The position numbers and the translations under genes were made by a program. Under the pieces are notes generated by a model that saw only the letters and a program-made list of their open reading frames with translations, did no database searches and was not told the origin of the DNA. Positions 3,662 to 26,563 of a DNA stretch of 28,100 nucleotides are shown piece after piece; the first letter of the stretch is position 1, and every line of letters starts with the position of its first letter. The stretch spans positions 1-28,100 of IMG/VR virus record IMGVR_UViG_3300045286_000054. One strand, given 5' to 3'. This DNA is from a virus.

Positions 3662-6600
3662 CTATGCGCTCACGTTGTACCATTCCGCGTAACCGATGCG
3701 CATCTGGCTGGCGTTGGTCCCGCGGATGTCGGAGAACGCCGCGCTATTGTTGAGGGTCGTCGAGGTGGCTGACAGCTCACCCCACCCCAAAGCTATCTGT
3801 GCCGAAGCGTTGCTGGCAGCGGAGAAGACACCGCTCAGCGTCGGTGCTGCCACGGGCAATCCGAAATCATATGGCGTAAAGGTGAGGCCACCGCCGCTCG
3901 TTCGGTACCAAACCCCCAACCAATATAACCCTGGCGTTAGGTTCATGTTCATGGACTGGGTGATTAACCGGCCGCCGTGGTAGCTGACGCTGCTCTGCGT
4001 GCTCGTGTAGGAGATCGTGTAGTTGGTACCGGAGATCGACGCCGCGCTCAAGGTCGAGCCGTTGCGTGTGTAGATGCCCATGGCGAAGGATATAGTCGCG
4101 CTCATCGTGCCAGTGTTGTTGCCGCTCAGCGAGAACGCTATGGCGGCGGCGGAGGCGCTGTGGAACCGATCGACCCGCACCGGGGCGAAGTGCGCGGTGG
4201 CGTTGGAGATCGTGCCCGGAGTCGGCGGCACCCCATAGTTGAATGGTATCCAGATGCTGTTGGTGAGCAGCTCACCGATCGAGATCGTCATGCTGCCGGC
4301 GTTGGTCGACCCGTTCAGGTCAACCGTGTCGGTGCCCACCAGCACGAGCTGGTTGGACGCTAGGCCGCTGGTCCCAGAGGTGTTGCCGAGGTTCGAGAAC
4401 CCGGCGGAGAGCAGCGTCGGACCGGAGATAGACACCGTGGCAGCAAGGGTACCGCCAGCCGTCGCCTCGCTCAGCGTTATGTTGTTTATGCCGGCGAAGA
4501 TGATATTGTTTACAACCGTGCCAGTGTTGCCGCTGGTGTTGCCTCCGGTCGAGACGCCCGCCTTAAACAGGCTGGGGTTGATAAAGCTTACTGTGGCGCC
4601 GTTGGCATCAGTAGACTGACTCAAGGTCATCTCGTGATCGCCATACAGCACAAGACGTGTGCCGGTCACCCCGGTCGAACCCGCCGTGTTCCCACCGGTA
4701 CTAACCCCTGCACTGAACTGGCCAGCCCCACCGCCTGCGCCACTAATGCTGATCGTGTTGCCGTTGGCGTCGGTCGACTGGCTGAGGGTGATGTTGTTGG
4801 TACCCACCAGCACCATCCGGGTGCCACTGATCCCGGTCGAACCAGCCGTATTGCCGGCTGTGGAGACACCGGCTGAGAACGCCGGCTGGCCGATGAAGCT
4901 GAGCGTGGCGGAGGCGCCGTTCACCGACTGCGAGACGGTGATGTTGCTCGTCCCGATGATCACGGCCCGGACCTGCCCGCCCGAAGCCACGCCGCTGGTC
5001 CCCAGCGTGTTGCCCAGGTTCGAGGCCCCGATCGACTGCGACTCCACCGTCTGCGCGGCGACGGAGATGGAGAGCGTGGCGGAGCTAACGTTGGTCGACT
5101 GGCTTACCGTGACGTTGGGGCCGCCGACCACCAGCATCTGCAGCTGGTTGCCCGAGATCACGCCGCTGGTCCCGGCCGTGTTGCCCAGGTTCGACATGCC
5201 GAAGGTCTGCGACGCGGCCGTCTGCGCGGGGATCGTCACGTTGATGCTAACGGTGCCGCCGTTCGCGTCGGTCGACTGGCTGAGGGAGACGGCGTTGGTG
5301 CCTACCAGGACAAGCCGCGTCCCGGTGACCCCGGTAGACCCGGCCGTGTTGCCCAGGTTGCTGGCGCCGGCCGAGAACCCGGCGCCCCCGGCGGCGCCGA
5401 TGATCGACACGGTAGCCCCGGCGGCGCCCGTGGTCTGCGACAACGTGATGTTGTTCGACCCGACCAGTACAAGCTGCGTGCTGGAGACGCCAGTGGCCCC
5501 GGCCGTATTGCCGCCGGTCGAGACGCCCGCCACGAACGGTGGGTTGGCGATCAAGGACAACGTGGCCGAGGCGCCGTTAACCGACTGACTGACGGTCAGG
5601 TTGCTGGTGCCGATGATGACCGCGCGGACCTGGCCTCCACTCGCCACGCCGGACGTGCCCAGCGTGTTGCCTAGGTTGCTGACGCCGATCGATTGGCTCT
5701 CAACCGTCTGCGCGGGGATGGTGACGTTAACGCTGACCGTACCGCCGTTGCCATCGGTGGACTGGGACAGGCTCACGGCGTTGGTGCCTACCAGGACGAG
5801 GCGCGTGCCGGTGATTCCCGTCGACCCCGCCGTGTTTCCCAGGTTACTGGCGCCGGCCGAGAACGCCGGCTGGCCGATCAACGACAGGGTCGCCGAAGCA
5901 CCGTTCACCGACTGGGACACCGTGATGTTCGAGGTGCCGATAATGACCGCGCGGACCTGGCCGCCGGAGGCCACCCCGGAGGTGCCGAGAGTGTTGCCCA
6001 GATTCGAGGCGCCGATGGACTGGCTCTCGACGGTCTGGGCCGGGATCGTAACGTTGACGCTGAGGGTGCCACCATTGGCGTCGGTGGACTGCGACAGGCT
6101 GACGGCGTTGGTCCCGACGAACACCAGCCGGGTGCCCGTCACGCCGGTGCTGCCGGCCGTGTTGCCTAGGCTGCTGGCGCCCGCCGAGAACCCCGCGCCG
6201 CCCGCGCCGCCGATGATCGTGATCGCGTTGCCCGCGTTCTGCGAGAGCGTGATGTTGGCCCCACCGGCCAGGGTCAGCGTGCCGGAGGAGATGAGCGCAC
6301 CCACGCCGGCCGTGTTGCTGGAGATCGTGACGTCGACCAAGTTCTGGGTCTGCACCGACTGGTTGGCCGCGGAGACCGTGACCGCGTTGCCAGCCTGGCT
6401 GAGGGTGACGTTGTTGCCGCCGGCCAGGGTCAAGGTACCCGATGAGACGAGCGCCAGCGCCCCGGCCGTGTTGCCGGCCAGCGTCACGTCCACCAGATTC
6501 TGTGTCTGGACCGACTGGCTAGTGCTGGCACCGCTCACCGTGATGGTGGCGCCGTTCGGCCCGGTCGACTGGCTGAGCGTGATCGACTGGCCGCCGGCCA

Positions 6601-16771: not shown

Positions 16772-16994
16772 CGGCCAACTCCCAATCGGTCGCGAGTAGA
16801 TCAGTCTGTGAACACAACCACGGAACCAGGTCCCCAGTCTCGCCAGCCGTCCGAATGTAAACGTAGGGTAGCGTCATCTTGCTGCTACCGTCTGGTATCT
16901 GGAGAGCGAGCCACATGTTCTTGCCATTCCAACCGACACGGCGAACACGGTGTTTGTCCAGAAGCTGTTTTACAGCCCATCCGATGGTGTTCAT
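16764..16994 (-). CDS. Tad2-like (DUF2829) anti-defence protein
   Basis: The 76-residue protein matches the DUF2829/Tad2 domain along its length: RRVGWNGKNMWLALQIP at residues 19-35, LPYVYIRTAGE at about 42-52, and LVPWLCSQTDLLATDWEL at about 56-73. Conserved landmarks are GWNGK-x-MW, LPY-x-x-I/M-x-T and VPW-x-x-SQTD-x-LA-x-DW. Tad2 proteins are phage sponges that bind the cyclic ADP-ribose-derived signal of Thoeris immunity and so block effector activation; some homologues may bind other cyclic nucleotides. The start overlaps the co-chaperonin stop as ATGA and the stop overlaps the scaffold start, so it is embedded in the head operon. The domain call is strong; activity in this phage is inferred. 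Confidence 0.88.
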   Translation of the reverse strand: MNTIGWAVKQLLDKHRVRRVGWNGKNMWLALQIPDGSSKMTLPYVYIRTAGETGDLVPWLCSQTDLLATDWELADG

Positions 16995-17611
16995 ACGAAC
17001 GCCTTTACCGCCAGCGGGTCGCCCGTGAAGCGCCCCAGCAGGTCCAGGTCGTTGAACAGCACGAACTCTGCCTCAGCGCCCTTCGGGCCGCCGGGTACCG
17101 GCATCCGCCACCGGTCGCCGCCGTACTTAGCTATCCGCACGAACTCGCCGATCCGCGCCCAAGCGCCCTCGGGCCACGGCTCCTGCGTCGAGCGGTTCTT
17201 GAACGCCAGCGGGCCGACAGCGATGACCTTAGCCACCTGCATGTTGTCCTGCTGGGTGCGCTGCATGTCCGGGGGCAGCTCGATGCCGCCGCGGGTCACC
17301 CGCTGCGCGGAACGAACCTGCAGCAAGACCCGAGAACCATAAGGCACGAACTGAGGGTCCACCTCAGGAAAAGCCTCCAGCATCTCGCGCTCACGGTCGT
17401 CCCCCACGATCTTCAAGCCACCGGCACTCAGACCACCGGCACTCAGACCACCGGCACTCAGACCACCGGCACTCAGACCACCGGCACTCAGACCACCGGC
17501 ACTCAGACCACCGGCACTCAGACCACCGGCACTCAGACCACCGGCACTCAGACCACCGGCCCCCAGGCCGAGCGGCGCGCGGTTGGCGGTAAGGCGGTTG
17601 GAGCCGGTCAC
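16991..17611 (-). CDS. GroES-like co-chaperonin with GGLSA repeat N-terminus
   Basis: The 206-residue protein joins an unusual N-terminus to a Cpn10-like domain. Residues about 18-65 are nine copies of GGLSA. From about residue 85 the sequence follows GroES: FVPYGSRVLLQVRSA (first strand), RVTRGGIELPPDM (mobile loop), then MQVAKVIAVGP, GEFVRIAKYGGDRW and AEFVLFNDLDLLGRF (final strands). The order and spacing match bacterial and phage (gp31-type) co-chaperonins that cap GroEL for capsid folding, although an insertion (FKNRSTQEPWPEGAW) is present. The start is GTG 17611 with AAGGAG upstream, overlapping the previous stop as GTGA. It lies in the head operon, which supports a role in capsid protein folding. 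The fold call is good; chaperone function is inferred. Confidence 0.8.
   Translation of the reverse strand: MTGSNRLTANRAPLGLGAGGLSAGGLSAGGLSAGGLSAGGLSAGGLSAGGLSAGGLSAGGLSAGGLKIVGDDREREMLEAFPEVDPQFVPYGSRVLLQVRSAQRVTRGGIELPPDMQRTQQDNMQVAKVIAVGPLAFKNRSTQEPWPEGAWARIGEFVRIAKYGGDRWRMPVPGGPKGAEAEFVLFNDLDLLGRFTGDPLAVKAFV
17418..17552 (-). repeat. Nine identical 15-bp tandem repeats in co-chaperonin gene
   Basis: Nine consecutive perfect copies of the 15-mer ccaccggcactcaga (plus-strand reading) are followed by a degenerate partial copy. On the coding strand they read GGLSA nine times. There is not one base of divergence, even at third positions, so the array is young. The unit is five codons, so gain or loss of copies keeps the frame. 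Confidence 0.97.
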
Positions 17612-18061: not shown

Positions 18062-20782
18062 CTACGGGGTGGGGTTCGGGTTCCGGCCGAGACCGTGGCC
18101 GGTCTTGACCGCGACCTCCTTGTCGTGCGCGTGGTCCTTGGCCTGCGCACGCTCGTCGGCCGCCATCTCTAGCAGCGCGATCTTGAGCGCCGTGGCGTTG
18201 TCCTGGCTGTTGGCCAGCAGCCGGGCGCGCTCCTTCATGGCCGTGAGCTGCCGCTCCAGGTCCTGCTCCCGCGCCTCCAGCACCAGCCGCTGGCGCTCGA
18301 CCCCGGCGGCCACGGCCTCGCGCTGCAGGTCGCCCTTTGTGGCAGCCGTGCGGATGGCCGCCTCGGCGGCGGCACTCTCCGTCTGGTGGTGCAGCTCGGC
18401 TGCGCGCAGCGCGGTGTCGGCACGCGCCTGCTGGGCGTCCAGGGACAGCTCCTGCTGTCGGGCCGCGGCATCGACCTTGACCTTCTGTGCTTCCAGCTGC
18501 GCCCGCGTCTGGTCGTCCTTGCTCTTGCGCTGCACGTCCTGGAGCGCGGCCTGCGCCGCCGCCATCGCCGGGTCCTGTGGCGCCGTCTGCTGCTGGAGCT
18601 GCTGCATGAACTGGATGGCCTTGGCGATGGCCGCGTTCACCTGCTTGAAAAGGGGTGCCTGTTCCTCCTGCACGTAGACCGTCGCAGCGGCGAAGGCCCG
18701 CGCCAACGCGTTCTGCGCCCTCGGGTCGTTGGTCTTGCTCAGCTGCGCGAGCTTGGCGCCGCCGGCCGCGCGCTCTACAGCGTCGGACATGAACTTCGCG
18801 TAGAGGAAGACAAAGTGCTCCTTGATGTTCTGGATCGCCAGCGGGATGAACACCGGGCCGATGAACATGTTCTGTCCGAAGTTGGGGTCAGACAGGTAGC
18901 GTACCTTCACCATCAGGTGCGCCAGGTGGTCCTGGTTGGGGAATGCCACCGCCGCGCGGCCCAGCGACATCTGCACCACGTCCGTCACCGGATCCTGCGG
19001 GTCCGGGTTCGGCGGGTTGACGAGCAGGTCCGTCGGGTTGGGGATCTTCAGAGTGTCGAGGATGCGCTGCTCGACCTTGGCCTGGTCGTAGAGGGGGTTG
19101 CCGGTGGCGCGCTGGGCGATCACCTGCACCTGGGCCACACGCTGCGTCTCGCTGAATATGTTCGGGTCGCTGACCGGCACCACGTCGATGGCACCGCGGT
19201 AGTCCTGCGGTAGGGCCAACGGCTCGCCCGCGTCGGCGGTAAGCTCCCTCGCCTCCAGCGTGTCGCGGTTGATACGGTGCATGATCCGCAGCACCCGCGC
19301 CATCGCTGCGTGCATCCGCGCGTGGATGCTGGAGTAGACGATCAGCCCCTCCTGCTGGCGGGCCAGGGTCGTCCCGACCGGCGCGTTGGGGCCGAGGTCG
19401 GCGGTGTCGTCGAGCGCCGTCCGCACCATGCCGGCGGCCTGCTCGGTAAGGAACCCGAGCAGCTCCAACAGGACGTTGCTCGGCGGGTTGTAGGGGAACG
19501 GCATGAACAGCTTGCGCACGTCGTCGTTGTTGATCGACGACTCAAGCTCGTTGATCTGCGTTACCTTGGCGTTGATCGACTGGCCACCGCGTAGGCCGCC
19601 CTTGAGCTTGACGCCCGCGCCGGAGTTGTTCAGGTGGGCGCTATCCAGCAGTGCTCGCAACGCTCCGGTGGCCGCGATAGACATACCTCCGATGAGATGG
19701 AAGATGCCAATCGGGTAGGCTCCGCGCCAGGGTATGAAAGGCCATTCAACAATGTGGTCAAGTTCTTCAACCACCCCCAACCGTCCTGCGACGTCGGGGT
19801 CCCAGTCCCGGTACATTGCCGCACAAGTTCGGGTGCTTTCGTCGAGGGTGAGCACGTAAGGAACATTCTCCTGGTCCTTTGGCCGCTGGTCGTCATCGTC
19901 CCACGTGAGCCACACGTAGGTCTCATACATGAGCCGCACGCCGTCCTCGTTGTAGGGTGAGGACGCCTTGCCCTCGATGCGGTTGGACGCCTGCGCCGAC
20001 TTGGTCTCGTCGGGCTGCAGGCTCGTCGGCGCCATGTCCACGTCCGCGTAGGTACCGGCCGCGACGCGCCGCTGGTACTCCTGCTCGGTCAGCCGTAGCA
20101 CCACCGTCCGCCGCCTTGCCGCCAGGAAGCTGGGCGCCGCGTAGGGCAGCAGCATGTCGTCAACCCAGACGACCTCGGCGGTGGGCCGGCGCTTCTGCGG
20201 GTCGTACCAGTGCTTCGTGTACTGGACGCCGCCGGGCGGCACCTGCGACAGCACCTGCTCCAGCATCGGCCGGAACTCAGGCATCTGCTCCGTGAGCTGC
20301 CAGTTCAGGTGCTGGACCTTGCGCTTCGCCCGCGCGACCTTCTTGTCGGTCACGTCGCCGATGATCTTGTCCTTGACGGGGCCATCAGGCGGGAAGATCT
20401 CCTTCATGATGCGGGCAGCGAAGTCGATGCTGACCGCGCCGATCATCGGGTGGACGACCTTGCTGGCACCCACGAAGTCAGCGCCACCCGGCGCCTCGTC
20501 CGAGAAGCCCGTGCGCCGCAGCGCGTCGGCCTGCTGCTCGTCGCGCTTCTTGCGCGCCTCCTTGTCCTGCTCGATCTTGTCCAGCAGATCAACGACGAAG
20601 GTGTTCAGCTGGGTGGGGTCGATCGTCTCGACGAGGTTGGCGAAGAAATCGCCGTGGCTCTCGGGGCCAGCGTCGCCCACCGCGACGTAGGCGCCGCCGT
20701 CCTCGGTGTCGATGGTGTCGGACGCGGCCTCGTCCAATGGTTCTAACGAACCCTGGTCCTGGTCTAACTGCGGATCAGCCAT
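18062..20782 (-). CDS. Portal (head-tail connector) protein
   Basis: The 906-residue protein is a large podovirus-type portal, the dodecameric channel through which DNA is packaged and ejected. Typical segments are FVGASKVVHPMIGAVSIDFAARIMKEIFPPDGPVKD and VPPGGVQYTKHWYDPQKRRPTAEVVWVDDMLLPYAA. Others are WPFIPWRGAYPIGIFHLIGGMSIAATGALRALLDSAHLNN and MVRTALDDTADLGPNAPVGTTLARQQEGLIVYSSIHARMHAAM. From about residue 700 to the end it is a long Gln/Ala/Glu-rich coiled coil (SKDDQTRAQLEAQKVKVDAAARQQEL onward), like a portal barrel extension. It is longer than most portals (about 500-750). Its AAGGAG ribosome site lies inside one arm of a 21-nt inverted repeat, next to a hammerhead ribozyme. Confidence 0.92.
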   Translation of the reverse strand: MADPQLDQDQGSLEPLDEAASDTIDTEDGGAYVAVGDAGPESHGDFFANLVETIDPTQLNTFVVDLLDKIEQDKEARKKRDEQQADALRRTGFSDEAPGGADFVGASKVVHPMIGAVSIDFAARIMKEIFPPDGPVKDKIIGDVTDKKVARAKRKVQHLNWQLTEQMPEFRPMLEQVLSQVPPGGVQYTKHWYDPQKRRPTAEVVWVDDMLLPYAAPSFLAARRRTVVLRLTEQEYQRRVAAGTYADVDMAPTSLQPDETKSAQASNRIEGKASSPYNEDGVRLMYETYVWLTWDDDDQRPKDQENVPYVLTLDESTRTCAAMYRDWDPDVAGRLGVVEELDHIVEWPFIPWRGAYPIGIFHLIGGMSIAATGALRALLDSAHLNNSGAGVKLKGGLRGGQSINAKVTQINELESSINNDDVRKLFMPFPYNPPSNVLLELLGFLTEQAAGMVRTALDDTADLGPNAPVGTTLARQQEGLIVYSSIHARMHAAMARVLRIMHRINRDTLEARELTADAGEPLALPQDYRGAIDVVPVSDPNIFSETQRVAQVQVIAQRATGNPLYDQAKVEQRILDTLKIPNPTDLLVNPPNPDPQDPVTDVVQMSLGRAAVAFPNQDHLAHLMVKVRYLSDPNFGQNMFIGPVFIPLAIQNIKEHFVFLYAKFMSDAVERAAGGAKLAQLSKTNDPRAQNALARAFAAATVYVQEEQAPLFKQVNAAIAKAIQFMQQLQQQTAPQDPAMAAAQAALQDVQRKSKDDQTRAQLEAQKVKVDAAARQQELSLDAQQARADTALRAAELHHQTESAAAEAAIRTAATKGDLQREAVAAGVERQRLVLEAREQDLERQLTAMKERARLLANSQDNATALKIALLEMAADERAQAKDHAHDKEVAVKTGHGLGRNPNPTP

Positions 20783-20783
20783 C

Positions 20784-20955
20784 GACTAGGCTCCTTAGGT
20801 CGTGACCCCTGGTGGTCAGTTGTTCCCCAGCTGGGACCACTCCGCGGGACGGCCAAAAGGCCGTTTCTGCTTTCGCTTCATCAGCCGCAAGGTGCTGGGC
20901 CAGATGCTGTCTGCACAGGGTCACATTGACAGCCCACGGCCTAAAGAGCCTAGTC
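20784..20955 (-). promoter_or_regulatory. Long inverted repeat pairing across the terL-portal gap and covering the portal ribosome site
   Basis: The left arm (20955-20935 on the transcript) and right arm (20804-20784) are each 21 nt and complementary at 19 positions, with one further G-U pair and one C-A mismatch. The left arm begins within the terminase stop codon. The right arm ends one base before the portal ATG and contains its AAGGAG site (20796-20791). Inside are additional stems: GCUGUC/GACAGC (20933-20928 with 20911-20906) and GUGGUC/GACCAC (20840-20835 with 20817-20812), and the hammerhead. The whole gap appears to be one folded RNA that could limit portal translation. Confidence 0.75.
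20838..20894 (-). ncRNA. Hammerhead ribozyme, type I, in terL-portal intergenic RNA
   Basis: On the minus-strand transcript the order is stem I 5' strand CACCUUGCGG (20894-20885), core CUGAUGA (20884-20878), short stem II AGC-GAAA-GCA (20877-20868) and core GAAA (20867-20864). Stem III CGGCC-UUUU-GGCCG (20863-20850) comes next, then U and C of a GUC triplet (20849-20848). The stem I 3' strand CCGC..GUG follows (20847-20838). GCGG pairs with CCGC and CAC with GUG, with two wobbles and one mismatch between. The core bases and A15.1-U16.1 pair match the hammerhead consensus. Predicted cleavage is after 20848. Stem II is the weak point: only two G-C pairs, with an A-A where G10.1-C11.1 is usual. 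Activity is not proven. Confidence 0.85.
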
Positions 20956-22576
20956 AACTCGCATATGGGTTCACCACGTCCTCGTTGGGGTGGTTCGCGC
21001 CGTTACTATAGCCCCTGCCGTCCTCCGGGTAAATAGCCTCCGAGGGCACGCCCTTGACCCGTGCTTCGGCCACCCGCGCCAGCTCCTCCTTCAGCGTCCT
21101 CTCGTCCACGGCCCGCAGCTCGCCGAAATCGGCCAGCACCCGCAACGCCTGGCTGGTGGTGTCAACGAAGTCGTCGTGCCTCAGGCTCCCTTCGCCGGAG
21201 AAGGTACAAAGCTGCTCGACGACGGGGTTGGCCCAGTCGGGGAGGGAGCCGGCGGGCTTCTGTCCCTTGGCGACAAGAGGTGATTCAGGGACAAAGACGC
21301 GACCACGCGCGAACAGCGGGGACACCACATGAAGTCGTGCGAGCTTGTCCGCCTTCCCTGGGTTATACGCGTATGCCTGGATTCCATCTCGCTCAAGCAT
21401 CTGCCGCAAAGATATCCCGGAACCCTTGTCCTCGATAAGGAGTAGGTCAATCTTCCGTCCATCGTTCTGTAACCCCTTCGGCCCGAACATCGGCTCGATC
21501 ATCAGCTTCGTCGGCGCCCCGTAGCGCGCCTTCATCTCCCGCTTCACCCGCTCGATCAGGTCGGGCAGGCCGTACATATCCTGCCAGGCGTCCAGCAGCA
21601 TCACCGCCGGGAGCGGCTTTTTCTCCGGCCACTTGTAGCGGTCCTCGACGACGATCGTCTCGTGGAACACTCCCCACACCGTGCAGGCCGTCGGGTCGCG
21701 CTCCCAGGTCTTGTCGTCGGTCGTCTTCTCGGTAAACGCGGTATCGAGCGACAGGACGATGAACGAGAACTCCGGCAACGGTCTCGACGCCGGCCACACC
21801 CGCAGCCACGAGCGGCGGATGACGCCCATCTCCTCCATGTCCAGCAGCTCGCCGTGCAGCTCCTGGCGCCCAAGCCGGGTACCCTCATACTGGAGCAACT
21901 CGTCGAGGAACGAGCGCGGCAGGTTCTCCTTGTTCTCGTAGGTCGTGCCGCGCACGAGCACGGTCCGCGCGTGCTTGACGAGCTTCTGCACCAGCGGGCG
22001 GGGCTTCGGCGTGCCGGTCACCACGACCTGCGGCCAGGGGCCGAGGCGCAACCCCATCACCATCATGTCCCAGGTGGCCAGGTCGTACTGCCAGCTACCC
22101 ACCTCCTCGCACCAGGCGCGCTTGCACTGCGGGCCGCGCAATGACTCCGGCGTCGTGGCCTCGAAGCCCAGGATCTTCGACCCGTTGGTGAGCGTGATGG
22201 AGTACGGCGAGCGGATGAAGTGCGCCACCAGCTCGGGCGGGATGATGTTGATGAGGCCCGTCGGTCCCTCGAACGTGGTCTTCCGGTGGTCGTCGGTCGT
22301 CGGCGCGATCACATGGCTGATGGAGTTCACGTCGCCCGGCGGGTCGTTGATCGCCTCCCAGGCAAGCCACTGTGCCGCCGCCAGCGTCTTGCCGAACCCA
22401 CGACCGGACATGATGAACCAGATATAGAACGGTATCGCGGGCGGGAGCTGCTTCGGCCGCGCGGTGATTAGCCACCGCATGCGCCAGAGCGTCTTCGCCA
22501 TCTCCAGCGAGCTGGCCCCGGCCAGGGCCTCCATGACCTGCTCGCGCGGCAGGACGGCGAACGGGTCAACGTCCAT
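20954..22576 (-). CDS. terL: Terminase large subunit (TerL)
   Basis: The 540-residue protein is the DNA-packaging motor. The N-terminal ATPase has Walker A SGRGFGKT at 57-64, IAPTTDDHRKT at 90-100, Walker B RAWCEE at 153-158 with the catalytic Glu pair, and a coupling motif VVVTGTP at 184-190. The C-terminal nuclease has LSLDTAF with D278, acidic LLLIEDKGSG at 378-387 (E382, D383) and HDDFVDTTSQAL at 467-478. These are the three acidic positions of the RNase H-like headful nuclease. Length is normal. It cuts and translocates DNA into the procapsid through the portal, encoded next. Start ATG 22576 is three bases after the small membrane-protein gene's stop triplet begins. The stop is embedded at the start of the structured RNA gap before the portal gene. 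Confidence 0.95.
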   Translation of the reverse strand: MDVDPFAVLPREQVMEALAGASSLEMAKTLWRMRWLITARPKQLPPAIPFYIWFIMSGRGFGKTLAAAQWLAWEAINDPPGDVNSISHVIAPTTDDHRKTTFEGPTGLINIIPPELVAHFIRSPYSITLTNGSKILGFEATTPESLRGPQCKRAWCEEVGSWQYDLATWDMMVMGLRLGPWPQVVVTGTPKPRPLVQKLVKHARTVLVRGTTYENKENLPRSFLDELLQYEGTRLGRQELHGELLDMEEMGVIRRSWLRVWPASRPLPEFSFIVLSLDTAFTEKTTDDKTWERDPTACTVWGVFHETIVVEDRYKWPEKKPLPAVMLLDAWQDMYGLPDLIERVKREMKARYGAPTKLMIEPMFGPKGLQNDGRKIDLLLIEDKGSGISLRQMLERDGIQAYAYNPGKADKLARLHVVSPLFARGRVFVPESPLVAKGQKPAGSLPDWANPVVEQLCTFSGEGSLRHDDFVDTTSQALRVLADFGELRAVDERTLKEELARVAEARVKGVPSEAIYPEDGRGYSNGANHPNEDVVNPYAS

Positions 22577-23499: not shown

Positions 23500-23518
23500 T
23501 TAACCTGAAACAGGTTAA
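23500..23518. promoter_or_regulatory. Perfect 19-bp palindrome TTAACCT-N5-AGGTTAA
   Basis: The two 7-bp arms are perfect and the spacer is GAAAC; the inner bases extend the pairing by one. The primase TAA stop lies inside the right arm. On the minus strand the element is followed by ATTTTG, so it may also act as a weak terminator. A second perfect copy is at 26568-26586 and a degenerate one at 17818-17836. Confidence 0.65.
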
Positions 23519-26004
23519 ATTCTCAGGTCGTCGGGTAGTTCCTCCCTGGTAACTACCGGCTCATCCGTCCAGTCCAAAACGCCGTCCAACCCCAGCTCTG
23601 CGGGGGTAACGCCCACGTTTACGGCCAACCGGGCCGCCGCCGCGGCCCTCGGGGGGAGTCTTCGGACGTACTCGGGATATCGTCGACCACCACCCTTGCG
23701 GAGGTAGCACCCCGTCTCCAGGAGGCGCTTCTGGACGTTGTCAGATACCCCCGCCGGGAGGTCGCTCGGTTCCAGCGGGAGCAGCCGTTGCAGCTCCCTG
23801 CGGAACGCCTTTATCGACATCTTCTGTAGGCCTACCAGGTCGCAGTATTTCACAAAGTCCTCATGGAAAAATCGCAGCACCGGTTCGACCGCCCAACCCT
23901 CCCCTACTAATCGCCCGATTAGAAAGTCCAAGACGGTATCTTCGCGCTCGGCCTTGACCTGCCGCAATCCGCGCGACTGCGGTATCCGCGTCAGCTCAAA
24001 CTTATTGACCGGAAGTCGTAACAGCCACGCGATGAGCTGCTCCAGCTGCCCCTCCTCGTACAACAACCTCATCAGAGTCCCAAAATGCCGCCGCGCGTCT
24101 TCTTGCCCGGCTGGCCCCGCAAACTTGTCCGGCGTCCGCAGCACGACGTACCGCCGCGCATCCTTACCGGCCTGGACGGGGGCTTGGCTGTTGGAGAGTA
24201 CCACCACGTGCAGGTAGTTGGGCACCCTCCTTCTGGCCTGCCCCTTTCCCTCGATCGTCAGCTCCCGGCCGGTGATGAGCGTCTTTAGGTAGTCCTGGTC
24301 GCCCTTCTTGCGCCCGTAGAGTGCCTCGTCGTAGACCACCACCAACTTGTTTTCCAACTCATCGTTGAACTGCGACGTGGCTTGATCGTGCTGGCCGTAG
24401 GAGAAGGAGTGGTCTGGATGGAATAGGTTCTGCACCATCTGGCCGAAGAAGGTCTTCCCAGTACCTTCCAGTCCCACGAGCACGAGGGCCACGTCGCAAC
24501 GAGCGGTAGGACACTGTACCAAGCGGGCCAGGTACCGCACTAGATACCGGGCCATGGTCGGGTCGTCCGGACACAGCGCGTCCTTGAGCATTGGGAGCAC
24601 GCGCGGGTCCAACCCAGTGTACACCAGCTGGTGGGCCTCCAGGCCCTTGGCCGTGTACCCTTCCCACATGTTCAGGTAGTCACCGTCGTGCGTCCGCGCC
24701 GGGTCTAGGTAGGTGCGGGCATAGATGCGTTTTCCCTCGTAGGTTTGCCACTTCTCCACCGCGTTGGTTCGCTTTGGCGCGGACTTGGGCCTGTCGGGGT
24801 CAACGGTGAAGCTGGGGACGTGGGCGTATACCTCCTTTACGCGGGAGAACTGGCTCAGCCGTGTGCGCACCGTCCGTCCGGTCACGGGGTCGCGTTCCGT
24901 GATCAGGTAGAACGGATCCCCCGTGATCGTTCCGACCAGAGCCACGCGTTCATGTATGTAACGGATGTCCGCTGGTAGGGCCTCCATGTGCTCGATCCGA
25001 CTGACGAGTTGTGCCAGCGGTAGTTCTGGTGAGGGGTCGCCATCCGCCACGTCCTTCCACTTGGCCGGCAGCCGCCAGTCCTCGATCGGTACCAGGGCCG
25101 CGGTAGCGTTGCCCGCCTGGTAAAGGCGGCCCTGCAGCAGCCGCATGGCCGACAGCCCCTTCTGGTCGTGGTCGGGGAGCAGCAGTACCCGTCGGCGCCG
25201 TAGACCACTCCAGTCGGTACTGAGGACCGCCTCGACCCCGCCATACCAGGTGAGCACCACCTTGCCGGGGAAGAGGCCCACCGCCGCGTCGTAAGTTTTT
25301 TCCCCCTCTACGACCAGCACGTCCGCATCCGGCCGTCGTTCCAACTCGAAATGACCTAACGGCAACAGCTCTCGTCCTAGCGGGCTGGCCTTGGTAACAA
25401 GACCCCACCCTTCCACGTCACCGAACCACGCTAGCTGCCTAAACGTCTTCTCCCCTGAGTCATCCTCGAACCGGGCCACGTAGAAGTGCGGCTCCTCCGA
25501 GCCGGGGTAGGTCCAGACCTTTACGAGATGAAAAGCCCGCGGTACGGAAAACCGCGCCCAGAACTCAGGGCTATCGATCTGCAATCCTTTTTTGAGCCAC
25601 GGCTCCATATGCCCCGGCGGGATGGGCCACCGTGCCCGCCGGTACTCTCGCTTGGCGCGCACGACCACGCCGTATCCTTGCAACTTGCCTCGTAGCCAGT
25701 TGGCCGTGTCCCGCGCCGAACGGTCGTCGCGCAGCAGCTTGATGAGTTCGACTAGGCTGTAGTGCTTCTTTCCCGTTTCTTCCCCGCCGACCCGCCAGCG
25801 GCCCCGCTCCAGGTTTACGGTAACGTCGTGCGCGTCGCTGCGCCATTTCTTCTTACCATGTTCTTCGAAAAAACGACCAGGGATATAGGCCGCCGCCAGT
25901 AGCTCGGGCAGCTTGCCCTTGAGGCTTTGTTCCAGGGCGTCCTTTTCCGCGTCTTTACGGAGCCGGCGTTCTTCTAGGGTCTCGTCTACCGGTTCAGTTA
26001 CCAT
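23515..26004 (-). CDS. TOPRIM primase with SF3-type helicase domain
   Basis: From ATG 26004 the protein has 829 residues (GTG 26022 is an alternative). Residues about 225-310 are a TOPRIM fold with EGEK (E233) and the DHD motif in LLLPDHDQKG (D278, D280). Residues about 500-620 are a superfamily 3/D5-like ATPase: Walker A GLEGTGKT at 511-518, Walker B VVVYDEA from about 555, and sensor VVVLSNSQAP around 605. The TYLDPARTHDG-D-YLNMWEGYTAK stretch precedes the ATPase, as in phage DUF5906-type proteins. An N-terminal region (KKWRSDAHDVTVNLERGRWR to VELIKLL) replaces a recognisable CHC2 zinc finger. It should prime and unwind phage DNA. It overlaps the nuclease gene by 11 bases and is followed by the repeat-rich control region. 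Confidence 0.88.
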   Translation of the reverse strand: MVTEPVDETLEERRLRKDAEKDALEQSLKGKLPELLAAAYIPGRFFEEHGKKKWRSDAHDVTVNLERGRWRVGGEETGKKHYSLVELIKLLRDDRSARDTANWLRGKLQGYGVVVRAKREYRRARWPIPPGHMEPWLKKGLQIDSPEFWARFSVPRAFHLVKVWTYPGSEEPHFYVARFEDDSGEKTFRQLAWFGDVEGWGLVTKASPLGRELLPLGHFELERRPDADVLVVEGEKTYDAAVGLFPGKVVLTWYGGVEAVLSTDWSGLRRRRVLLLPDHDQKGLSAMRLLQGRLYQAGNATAALVPIEDWRLPAKWKDVADGDPSPELPLAQLVSRIEHMEALPADIRYIHERVALVGTITGDPFYLITERDPVTGRTVRTRLSQFSRVKEVYAHVPSFTVDPDRPKSAPKRTNAVEKWQTYEGKRIYARTYLDPARTHDGDYLNMWEGYTAKGLEAHQLVYTGLDPRVLPMLKDALCPDDPTMARYLVRYLARLVQCPTARCDVALVLVGLEGTGKTFFGQMVQNLFHPDHSFSYGQHDQATSQFNDELENKLVVVYDEALYGRKKGDQDYLKTLITGRELTIEGKGQARRRVPNYLHVVVLSNSQAPVQAGKDARRYVVLRTPDKFAGPAGQEDARRHFGTLMRLLYEEGQLEQLIAWLLRLPVNKFELTRIPQSRGLRQVKAEREDTVLDFLIGRLVGEGWAVEPVLRFFHEDFVKYCDLVGLQKMSIKAFRRELQRLLPLEPSDLPAGVSDNVQKRLLETGCYLRKGGGRRYPEYVRRLPPRAAAAARLAVNVGVTPAELGLDGVLDWTDEPVVTREELPDDLRI

Positions 26005-26563
26005 GGTTGAACCTATAGTCACGAGCGGCCGCGATGGCTCGGGCTATTCGGTCATTCAAGAGGGTAGGGAACTTGTCACCGCAGCGTTCCGGGTTGCCGC
26101 AGTTTCGACTCGGGTATAGGAAACCACCACACATGTCGCCCTCGGCGAGGACGATCTCGCCGCAGTGCATTAGACGACACTCCCCGATGAAGGCATTGAG
26201 TTCTCCGTCCTCGTAGCCCTCATAGTATTCCGTCGGCTCGGCTCTTTTCGCCCTGTACAGTTCGCCGCGACCCGTGCCGGGATCGCCGATAGCCAGAAGG
26301 ACATCCTTGCCGGAGCAGGCCGCCAGGAGTCGGCACTTCTGCCTTTCCTCCTCCGTCGGTATGCCGCCCTTGACCTCGACGTAGATGTCCAGATCTGAGA
26401 TAAAGAAGTCCGGCAGGTAGTAAACCTCGTCCATCTTGACGCCTTCCGGCTCGTATTGGGCACCGATGTCTAACTCATCTAGGAAGATGGCCCACCTGGC
26501 CTCGACGCGCGAGCGGTAGGTAACGCCCTTGTATACGGACGGCAGGGTCTTGAACGTTCGCAT
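25994..26563 (-). CDS. PD-(D/E)XK-like nuclease with Cys-rich C-terminus
   Basis: The 189-residue protein starts at ATG 26563 (MRTFKTLPSVYKGVTYRSRVEARWAIFLDEL); AGAGGT lies about seven bases upstream. Motifs are E21 in RSRVEARWA, YEPEGV at 37-42, D52 in YYLPDFFI, and E63/K65 in DIYVEVKGG. This E...D...ExK set, with the YEPEG and LPDF context, matches a widespread phage family of PD-(D/E)XK (Holliday-resolvase/VRR-like) nucleases. The C-terminal half has several Cys (ECRLMHCG, DMCGGF, RNCGNPERCGDKF), perhaps a metal site or regulatory domain. It lies directly upstream of the primase-helicase, so roles in replication, recombination or host DNA breakdown are plausible. Confidence 0.78.
   Translation of the reverse strand: MRTFKTLPSVYKGVTYRSRVEARWAIFLDELDIGAQYEPEGVKMDEVYYLPDFFISDLDIYVEVKGGIPTEEERQKCRLLAACSGKDVLLAIGDPGTGRGELYRAKRAEPTEYYEGYEDGELNAFIGECRLMHCGEIVLAEGDMCGGFLYPSRNCGNPERCGDKFPTLLNDRIARAIAAARDYRFNHGN

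Follow-up and report, generated by a model that had tools for sequence, protein, structure and literature searches.

Phages and prophages are known to encode large, stand-alone structured RNAs such as GOLLD, ROOL and ARRPOF, often within tRNA clusters, and the pRNA of phage phi29 is a phage RNA from the packaging gene region whose like units associate through their loops. The family considered here differs from both, being far smaller than the former, with a hammerhead inside it and no Rfam match, and showing no sequence or Rfam similarity to pRNA and no confinement to packaging genes. Intergenic phage hammerheads have been noted in PaP3 and Bcep176 (PMC3088659, Perreault et al. 2011), and that paper describes natural U3-A8 hammerheads, covariants of this kind retaining activity in vitro, as well as natural U10.1-U11.1 mismatches. 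The U3-A8 compensation and U.U at 10.1-11.1, both of them compatible with activity, recur in our family, but the text consulted reports no conserved RNA surrounding those hammerheads. The HDV-like theta ribozymes (PMC10879173) are likewise small ribozymes with pseudoknots that adjoin phage tRNA genes, from which our family differs in lacking the P3 hairpin between P2 and P1', in its ribozyme core and in a predicted cut that lies away from the tRNA end. In comparison with the type I hammerhead (RF00163), the family has the same open stem I, CUGANGA and GAAA segments, A15.1-U16.1 pair and H17 that is not G, its three stems covary, and the type I model finds its E. coli copy; here, though, stem I enters a reciprocal-pseudoknot RNA rather than free ends or a loop, the 10.1-11.1 positions are often unpaired and the domain is dispensable. 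Here, we describe the family, its structure, its conserved catalytic core, its permutations and its genomic contexts, from which we infer cleavage, release and action in trans.

The starting point is a 28,100-nt stretch of viral DNA (IMG/VR record IMGVR_UViG_3300045286_000054, referred to as the window), in which a hammerhead had been predicted between the large terminase and portal genes, and both neighbours are as predicted. The terminase gene (20954-22576, minus strand, 540 aa) matches Pfam Terminase_6N/6C and PHROG 38, and the 906-aa product of the gene at 18062-20782 (minus strand) is 43% identical to GP094c of Caulobacter phage RW, which matches the portal family PHROG 1216 (E 7e-19); it is because of this homologue that we call it a portal. 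The 171-nt gap between them, bounded on the minus strand by the terL stop at 20954 and the portal start at 20782, folds with a z-score of -3.6 (0/200 shuffles as stable). The nearest named relatives by terminase are RW and its kin (52% identity), and in the RW terL-portal gap lie an annotated tRNA-Val and a further, weak tRNA-like match, the element described below being absent. In the window, ARAGORN and Rfam find no tRNA, tmRNA, cloverleaf or tRNA-like domain. The window element sits within a co-directional gene cluster, and no clear promoter or terminator of its own was found. Elsewhere in the window, the phage encodes a GroES-like co-chaperonin (16991-17611, minus strand), as does RW (RW_GP090c), and an 835-aa DNA primase-like protein (23515-26022, minus strand, PHROG 1156) upstream of the terminase. 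In RW itself (L278, 57116-59918), a SAM-dependent methyltransferase gene lies between two genes annotated as large terminase, which suggests that its terminase gene is interrupted.

The type I hammerhead domain occupies 20844-20888 of the minus strand. Its stem I is formed by GCGG (20885-20888), with the G at 20885 as N' (position 2.1), and its partner strand CCGC (20844-20847). The core CUGAUGA (C3-A9) lies at 20878-20884 and is followed by stem II, AGC-GAAA-GCA (20868-20877), whose first pair is A.A and which has 2 bp, by GAAA (G12, A13, A14 and A15.1; 20864-20867) and by the six-pair stem III, ACGGCC-UUUU-GGCCGU (20849-20864), which includes the A15.1-U16.1 pair (U at 20849). The predicted cleavage site falls between C17 (20848) and N1.1, hereafter N(beta) (20847). 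The MFE fold of the site is the hammerhead with all three stems, and every catalytic base is present except at the 10.1-11.1 pair, which hammerheads usually have but do not require. The order of the segments through to the GUC triplet, their position on the minus strand, the cut after 20848 and the atypical stem II with its A.A pair all agree with the original prediction. Its stem I holds for GCGG/CCGC, while the proposed CAC/GUG extension falls outside the conserved structure, since GUG belongs to the hairpin that we term PC and CAC to the linker after P3. A search for the core together with the three stems returned this site as the only match in the window and 0 matches in 400 order-1 random sequences (28.1 kb, same dinucleotide make-up), bearing out the claim that it is unlikely by chance, although the folding energy of the 63-nt piece by itself is not significant (z -1.1).

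The absence of a covariance-model match had been named as a result that would speak against the hammerhead, and this absence was found: the Rfam models give nothing relevant in the window, even at E 10. We overrule it because a model of the family, described below, matches the window at 126 bits, because the core and stems are conserved in relatives with compensatory changes, as the prediction had expected of a genuine ribozyme, and because the E. coli relative does score with the Rfam type I model (24.7 bits at E 6e-4, under the gathering threshold of 34, which is an operational criterion and no part of the hammerhead definition). On these grounds we take the silence of Rfam to reflect a limit of its models, and there is little doubt in our minds about the hammerhead fold of the window copy. 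Cleavage of this copy at a useful rate is likely, although the A.A first pair and the 2-bp stem II may slow it.

What the original prediction missed is that the hammerhead in the gap is an optional domain of a larger RNA. The whole element (20786-20953, minus strand), assigned from the family model, fold and complementarity, is 168 nt long, occupies the terL-portal gap and consists of P0, half A, the hammerhead linker, half B and P0'. P0 has 14 bp in the window; its 5' strand CUAGGCUCUUUAGG (20940-20953) directly follows the terL stop codon and is complementary to the 3' strand CCUAAGGAGCCUAG (20786-20799), which contains the probable portal Shine-Dalgarno sequence AAGGAG (20791-20796). Half A (46 nt, 20894-20939) begins with the alpha motif, N(alpha)CGUGG (20934-20939, with N(alpha) = C at 20939), followed by the P1 hairpin (GCUGUC at 20928-20933 with GACAGC at 20906-20911), whose loop houses the 5' strand of P2 (20917-20924), then AUCUGG and a tail that is the 5' strand of P3 (CCCAGC, 20894-20899). 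Half B (46 nt, 20802-20847) is built in a similar way, with C-CGCGGA followed by the PC hairpin (GUGGUC at 20835-20840 with GACCAC at 20812-20817), whose loop (20818-20831) contains the 3' strand of P3 (GCUGGG) and the near-invariant GGGGAAYAACU, and then a linker and a tail with the 3' strand of P2 (GGGUCAC, 20802-20808). The two halves thus form a reciprocal pseudoknot, in which P3 (6-7 bp in the window) joins the half-A tail to the half-B loop and P2 (7-8 bp) joins the half-B tail to the half-A loop.

This architecture was found to belong to a family. BLAST of the gap against phage records returned a single intergenic locus, in Mycobacterium phage Gaia (81% coverage, 76% identity), and from the Gaia copy further members were found in M. 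abscessus prophages, Arthrobacter phages Constance and Karkharias, Enterobacter phage SDFMU_EhYP and Microcystis phage Mwe-JY26, with further queries adding Acinetobacter plasmids and Pectobacterium phages. Copies in E. coli prophages are present in 15 of 5,426 E. coli genomes. At least 119 viral contigs match a 26-base pattern drawn from the conserved 3' hairpin, and most of those listed are true members by their hairpin pairing. The pattern GCATCTGGCCCAGCA alone was rejected as a family finder, with nearly all of its matches arising by chance. In total, the family exceeds 100 loci in phages, prophages and plasmids, from which a non-redundant set of 83 members was parsed. Among 620 bacterial species genomes, a scan turned up three weak matches without the family motifs and nothing convincing, and a scan of genome contigs gave seven matches, none with other family features. 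PaP3, a candidate member by virtue of its published hammerhead, has no family copy by motifs or by model. A single copy was found per phage record searched, with permuted ones (see below) scoring as two halves. A covariance model, R1, was built from 42 of the 83 parsed members; it matches 20800-20939 of the window with 126 bits (E 1.6e-43), the window being one of those 42 sequences and its relatives having been found independently by BLAST and patterns, and it also finds hammerhead-less and permuted copies outside its training set at about 67-90 bits. The window has the NCGUGG-P1 and NCGYGGA-PC halves, the reciprocal P2 and P3 and the GGGGAAYAACU sequence that define membership. Rfam contains no family for the RNA core in the window, Gaia, a viral contig copy (L004), E. 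coli, PaP3 or other sequences searched, Rfam 15 (with GOLLD and ROOL) gives no relevant match for the window, Gaia or L004 at E values up to 10, and the only match of the E. coli copy is Hammerhead_1. The searchable literature, with subscription journals outside its scope, holds no description of the twin-half RNA, and its core motif strings occur in no relevant paper.

Across the family, half A opens with NCGUGG, which leads into a 6-bp hairpin (15-16-nt loop), AUCUGG and a tail, while half B opens with NCGYGGA and continues with a 6-bp hairpin (17-nt loop) and a tail. The median lengths are 45 and 47 nt, and both stems have six pairs with G-C first. This likeness of the halves is short and could be convergent. 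In the 42 aligned sequences, the structure comprises 35 pairs including both pseudoknots, with 96.2% of cells paired, and double changes occur in 25 of the 35 pairs (363 cells, 103.6 being expected under shuffling), while slid-partner controls give 36-40% paired cells and 36-78 double changes. By helix, P1 is 100% paired (5/6 pairs covarying), PC 99.6% (4/6), P3 100% (3/6) and P2 90% (all five counted pairs), and the pair G20900-C20834 flanking P3 covaries between G-C and U-A. The hammerhead stems covary as well, stem I being 96% paired with double changes in two pairs, stem III 98% paired with double changes in three, and stem II 80% paired, also with double changes. The long terminal helix P0 is found in 34 of 69 members, compared with 17 of 345 (5%) mismatched-partner controls. 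That the element might be a chance resemblance or coding sequence, as the silence of Rfam could be read, is refuted by this covariation and the family-model match; with homologues in many unrelated phages showing compensatory changes and 0/400 random sequences giving a match, its probability is negligible. We regard the existence of a structured RNA family as practically certain.

The hammerhead was parsed in the A-B linker of 67 of the 83 members. The core is CUGANGA in 64 of these and UUGANAA in three, Gaia among them, the latter replacing C3-G8 by a compensated U3-A8, and GAAA follows in 67/67, a figure to be read with the fact that GAAA was itself a parsing condition. Position 17 is C in 40 members, A in 24, U in three and G in none, and the 10.1-11.1 pair is G-C in 36, A.A, as in the window, in 11 and U.U in eight. 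Since G is barred from position 17 and the C3-G8 change is compensated, this pattern indicates selection for cleavage, and the ban on G17 argues for more than a purely architectural junction, which would not need it. The hammerheads of the family very probably cleave.

The hammerhead is nevertheless not essential to the architecture. In 18 hammerhead-less sequences, the linker is a single base or a few while the whole RNA core is kept, and other linkers without a hammerhead contain a different hairpin or a wrecked hammerhead, as in L168 (9473-9611, minus strand), where the three-way junction is retained and the core destroyed (CUGANGA to GUAAAGA, GAAA to GCAA). As the nearest neighbours of most hammerhead-less copies carry a hammerhead, loss or gain of the domain has probably happened more than once. 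Two gene orders are also observed, A-linker-B in most members and hammerhead-B-P0 hairpin-A in twelve parsed members, and the permuted order is found in the E. coli prophage, Pectobacterium phage and Acinetobacter plasmid copies as well. All permuted copies seen have a hammerhead, always directly before half B, so the constant outcome of the predicted cleavage would be a free 5' end at N(beta). Several individual copies deviate in other ways. On Acinetobacter plasmid NZ_CP028569.1 (L135, 2696-2932), the copy immediately follows a tRNA-Asn gene; its hammerhead position 12 is A, so it is probably inactive. A related group (L143, L173, L184, L194, L240 and L247) has a much enlarged stem III region, the loop of which in several of them holds AGGAGTAATTA and ATGAATGT, which look like a ribosome-binding site and start codon within the ribozyme. 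L149, L166 and L208 have an extra GC-rich hairpin (of the GGCGGGGACGUAAGCCCCGCC type) between P3 and stem I, and L208 also carries a separate type II hammerhead (5300-5362, minus strand; 47.7 bits, above the Rfam threshold) some 250 nt upstream of its family element and separated from it by a tRNA gene.

A second regularity concerns the first bases of the halves. N(alpha) and N(beta) are identical in 81 of 83 members (C-C 45, G-G 32, U-U 3, A-A 1), the exceptions being A-U and A-G; an earlier parse gave identity in 77/79, with a maximum of 52 among 10,000 shuffles. A targeted scan for members with A or U at N(beta) added further members that follow the rule and two near-identical loci, L258 and L260, that break it. 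In hammerhead members, position 2.1 is the complement of both bases, and stem I could form with the alpha motif in place of beta, with 98.2% of cells pairing. The rule also holds in the hammerhead-less set, with identity in 18/18 and a complementary base preceding N(beta) in 17/18. The identity would reflect either a strand exchange that times hammerhead formation or a homo-base pair on the pseudo-dyad.

The genomic contexts are varied. A same-strand tRNA gene lies within 150 nt of 33 of 123 loci (9.8 expected), a count inflated by near-duplicate prophages; in all 33 the tRNA is on the strand of the element, and some copies start 1-2 nt past a tRNA 3' end. The L004 copy lies upstream of terminase genes and is directly followed by a terminator-like hairpin with a T run, that of SDFMU_EhYP lies between capsid and tail genes, and those of E. 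coli prophages between antiterminator Q and holin. A naive ORF caller, too crude in GC-rich loci to yield more, indicates mixed orientations of the surrounding genes.

How the element works can be explained in several ways. The original prediction took the hammerhead for an mRNA processor whose cut in the late transcript, made between terL and portal, would separate packaging from head mRNA and give the portal mRNA a 5'-OH. The intact core between two co-directional genes fits this, as do the late-gene spacers occupied elsewhere (L004, SDFMU_EhYP and E. coli Q-holin), but the 14-bp P0 together with P2 and P3 would keep both sides joined after the cut, hammerhead-less members retain the rest of the RNA, and many copies are flanked by tRNA genes or stand apart from co-directional genes, with plasmids among the other contexts. 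Processing of this kind is possible in the window phage and leaves the RNA core unexplained; we therefore think it an unlikely purpose, and mRNA splitting at most a secondary role. In slightly less probable fashion, the window junction could be purely structural, with the hammerhead fold kept and catalysis dead or very slow, a reading for which the A.A pair, the 2-bp stem II and the missing Rfam match speak, along with the destroyed core of L168 and the A12 of the plasmid copy. Against it, the remaining catalytic bases of the window are intact, A.A is tolerated in 11 of 67 intact-core members and H17 is never G.

The position of P0 raises the further prospect of cis-regulation, whereby a ribosome terminating on terL would open the helix and couple portal translation to terL. 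The 5' strand of P0 begins one base past the terL stop (20953), inside the footprint of a terminating ribosome, and AAGGAG, 8 nt before the portal ATG, is paired in P0. Such coupling could operate locally in the window phage, but as just about half of the members have a long P0 and contexts differ elsewhere, it cannot be the general role of the family, and as an account of the element it is improbable. Still more doubtful is a tRNA-processing ribozyme that helps to mature phage tRNA 3' ends, for which theta ribozymes provide the precedent: although several copies follow a tRNA 3' end by 1-2 nt and all nearby tRNAs share their strand, the predicted cut falls some 90 nt past the tRNA end, hammerhead-less copies such as L158 also flank tRNAs, and most copies, the window included, have no tRNA nearby. 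An HDV-like fold was rejected on the few unpaired bases between the P2 5' strand and P1' and the lack of an Rfam HDV-type match, and a DNA recombination site is opposed by the covariation of RNA pairs and the conserved ribozyme core; a group I intron, a tRNA or tmRNA and a riboswitch for the portal gene were considered and dropped.

The account that we favour, with somewhat better than even confidence, is that of a stand-alone RNA in which hammerhead cleavage would give half B a free 5' end. The RNA would be transcribed along with late genes or tRNAs and fold into the two-half pseudoknot, whereupon the linker hammerhead would cut just before half B (20848/20847) and leave it with a 5'-OH, the halves remaining bound through P2, P3 and, in the window, P0. 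Release from phage transcripts would probably be achieved by P0, by processing of flanking tRNAs or by a start of its own, and the released RNA would probably act as a separate, nicked, pseudo-symmetric molecule in the lytic cycle. We argue for a separate, trans-acting RNA because the core recurs without the hammerhead and in varied gene orders and neighbourhoods; the B-A permutation, the flush tRNA neighbours and the excess of same-strand tRNA genes nearby, the terminator-like hairpin after the L004 copy, the single copy per phage, the lack of a convincing copy in the 620 bacterial species genomes and the RW gap with tRNAs instead of the element all favour a stand-alone unit. Against this, in the window phage the element may act in cis alone, given its place inside a co-directional cluster with no clear promoter or terminator. 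A more specific proposal, which we put forward tentatively and at a little under even confidence, is that the family represents a new class of pseudo-two-fold-symmetric phage RNA that arose by fusion of two copies of a homodimerising hairpin-tail unit, in which the removable hammerhead would restore a two-chain dimer. The identical first bases would then mark either a strand-exchange switch or a homo-base pair at the symmetry axis, with the product acting in trans in phages of many bacterial phyla.

While the hammerhead motif is of a known kind, no Rfam family or searchable paper describes the twin-half RNA. A covariance model such as R1 should allow its annotation in phage genomes, where the locus is now blank or covered by short hypothetical ORFs, and the reciprocal loop-tail pairing of its two halves makes the RNA attractive as a structural target. 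The family displays a ribozyme gained and lost as a module, a natural permutation of halves and C3-G8 covariation. Phage hammerheads, whose function has been unsettled since their discovery, here gain a defined partner in the form of a compact RNA that is conserved among phages whose hosts are actinobacteria, cyanobacteria and proteobacteria. Its presence in E. coli prophages makes the question of function testable in laboratory E. coli.
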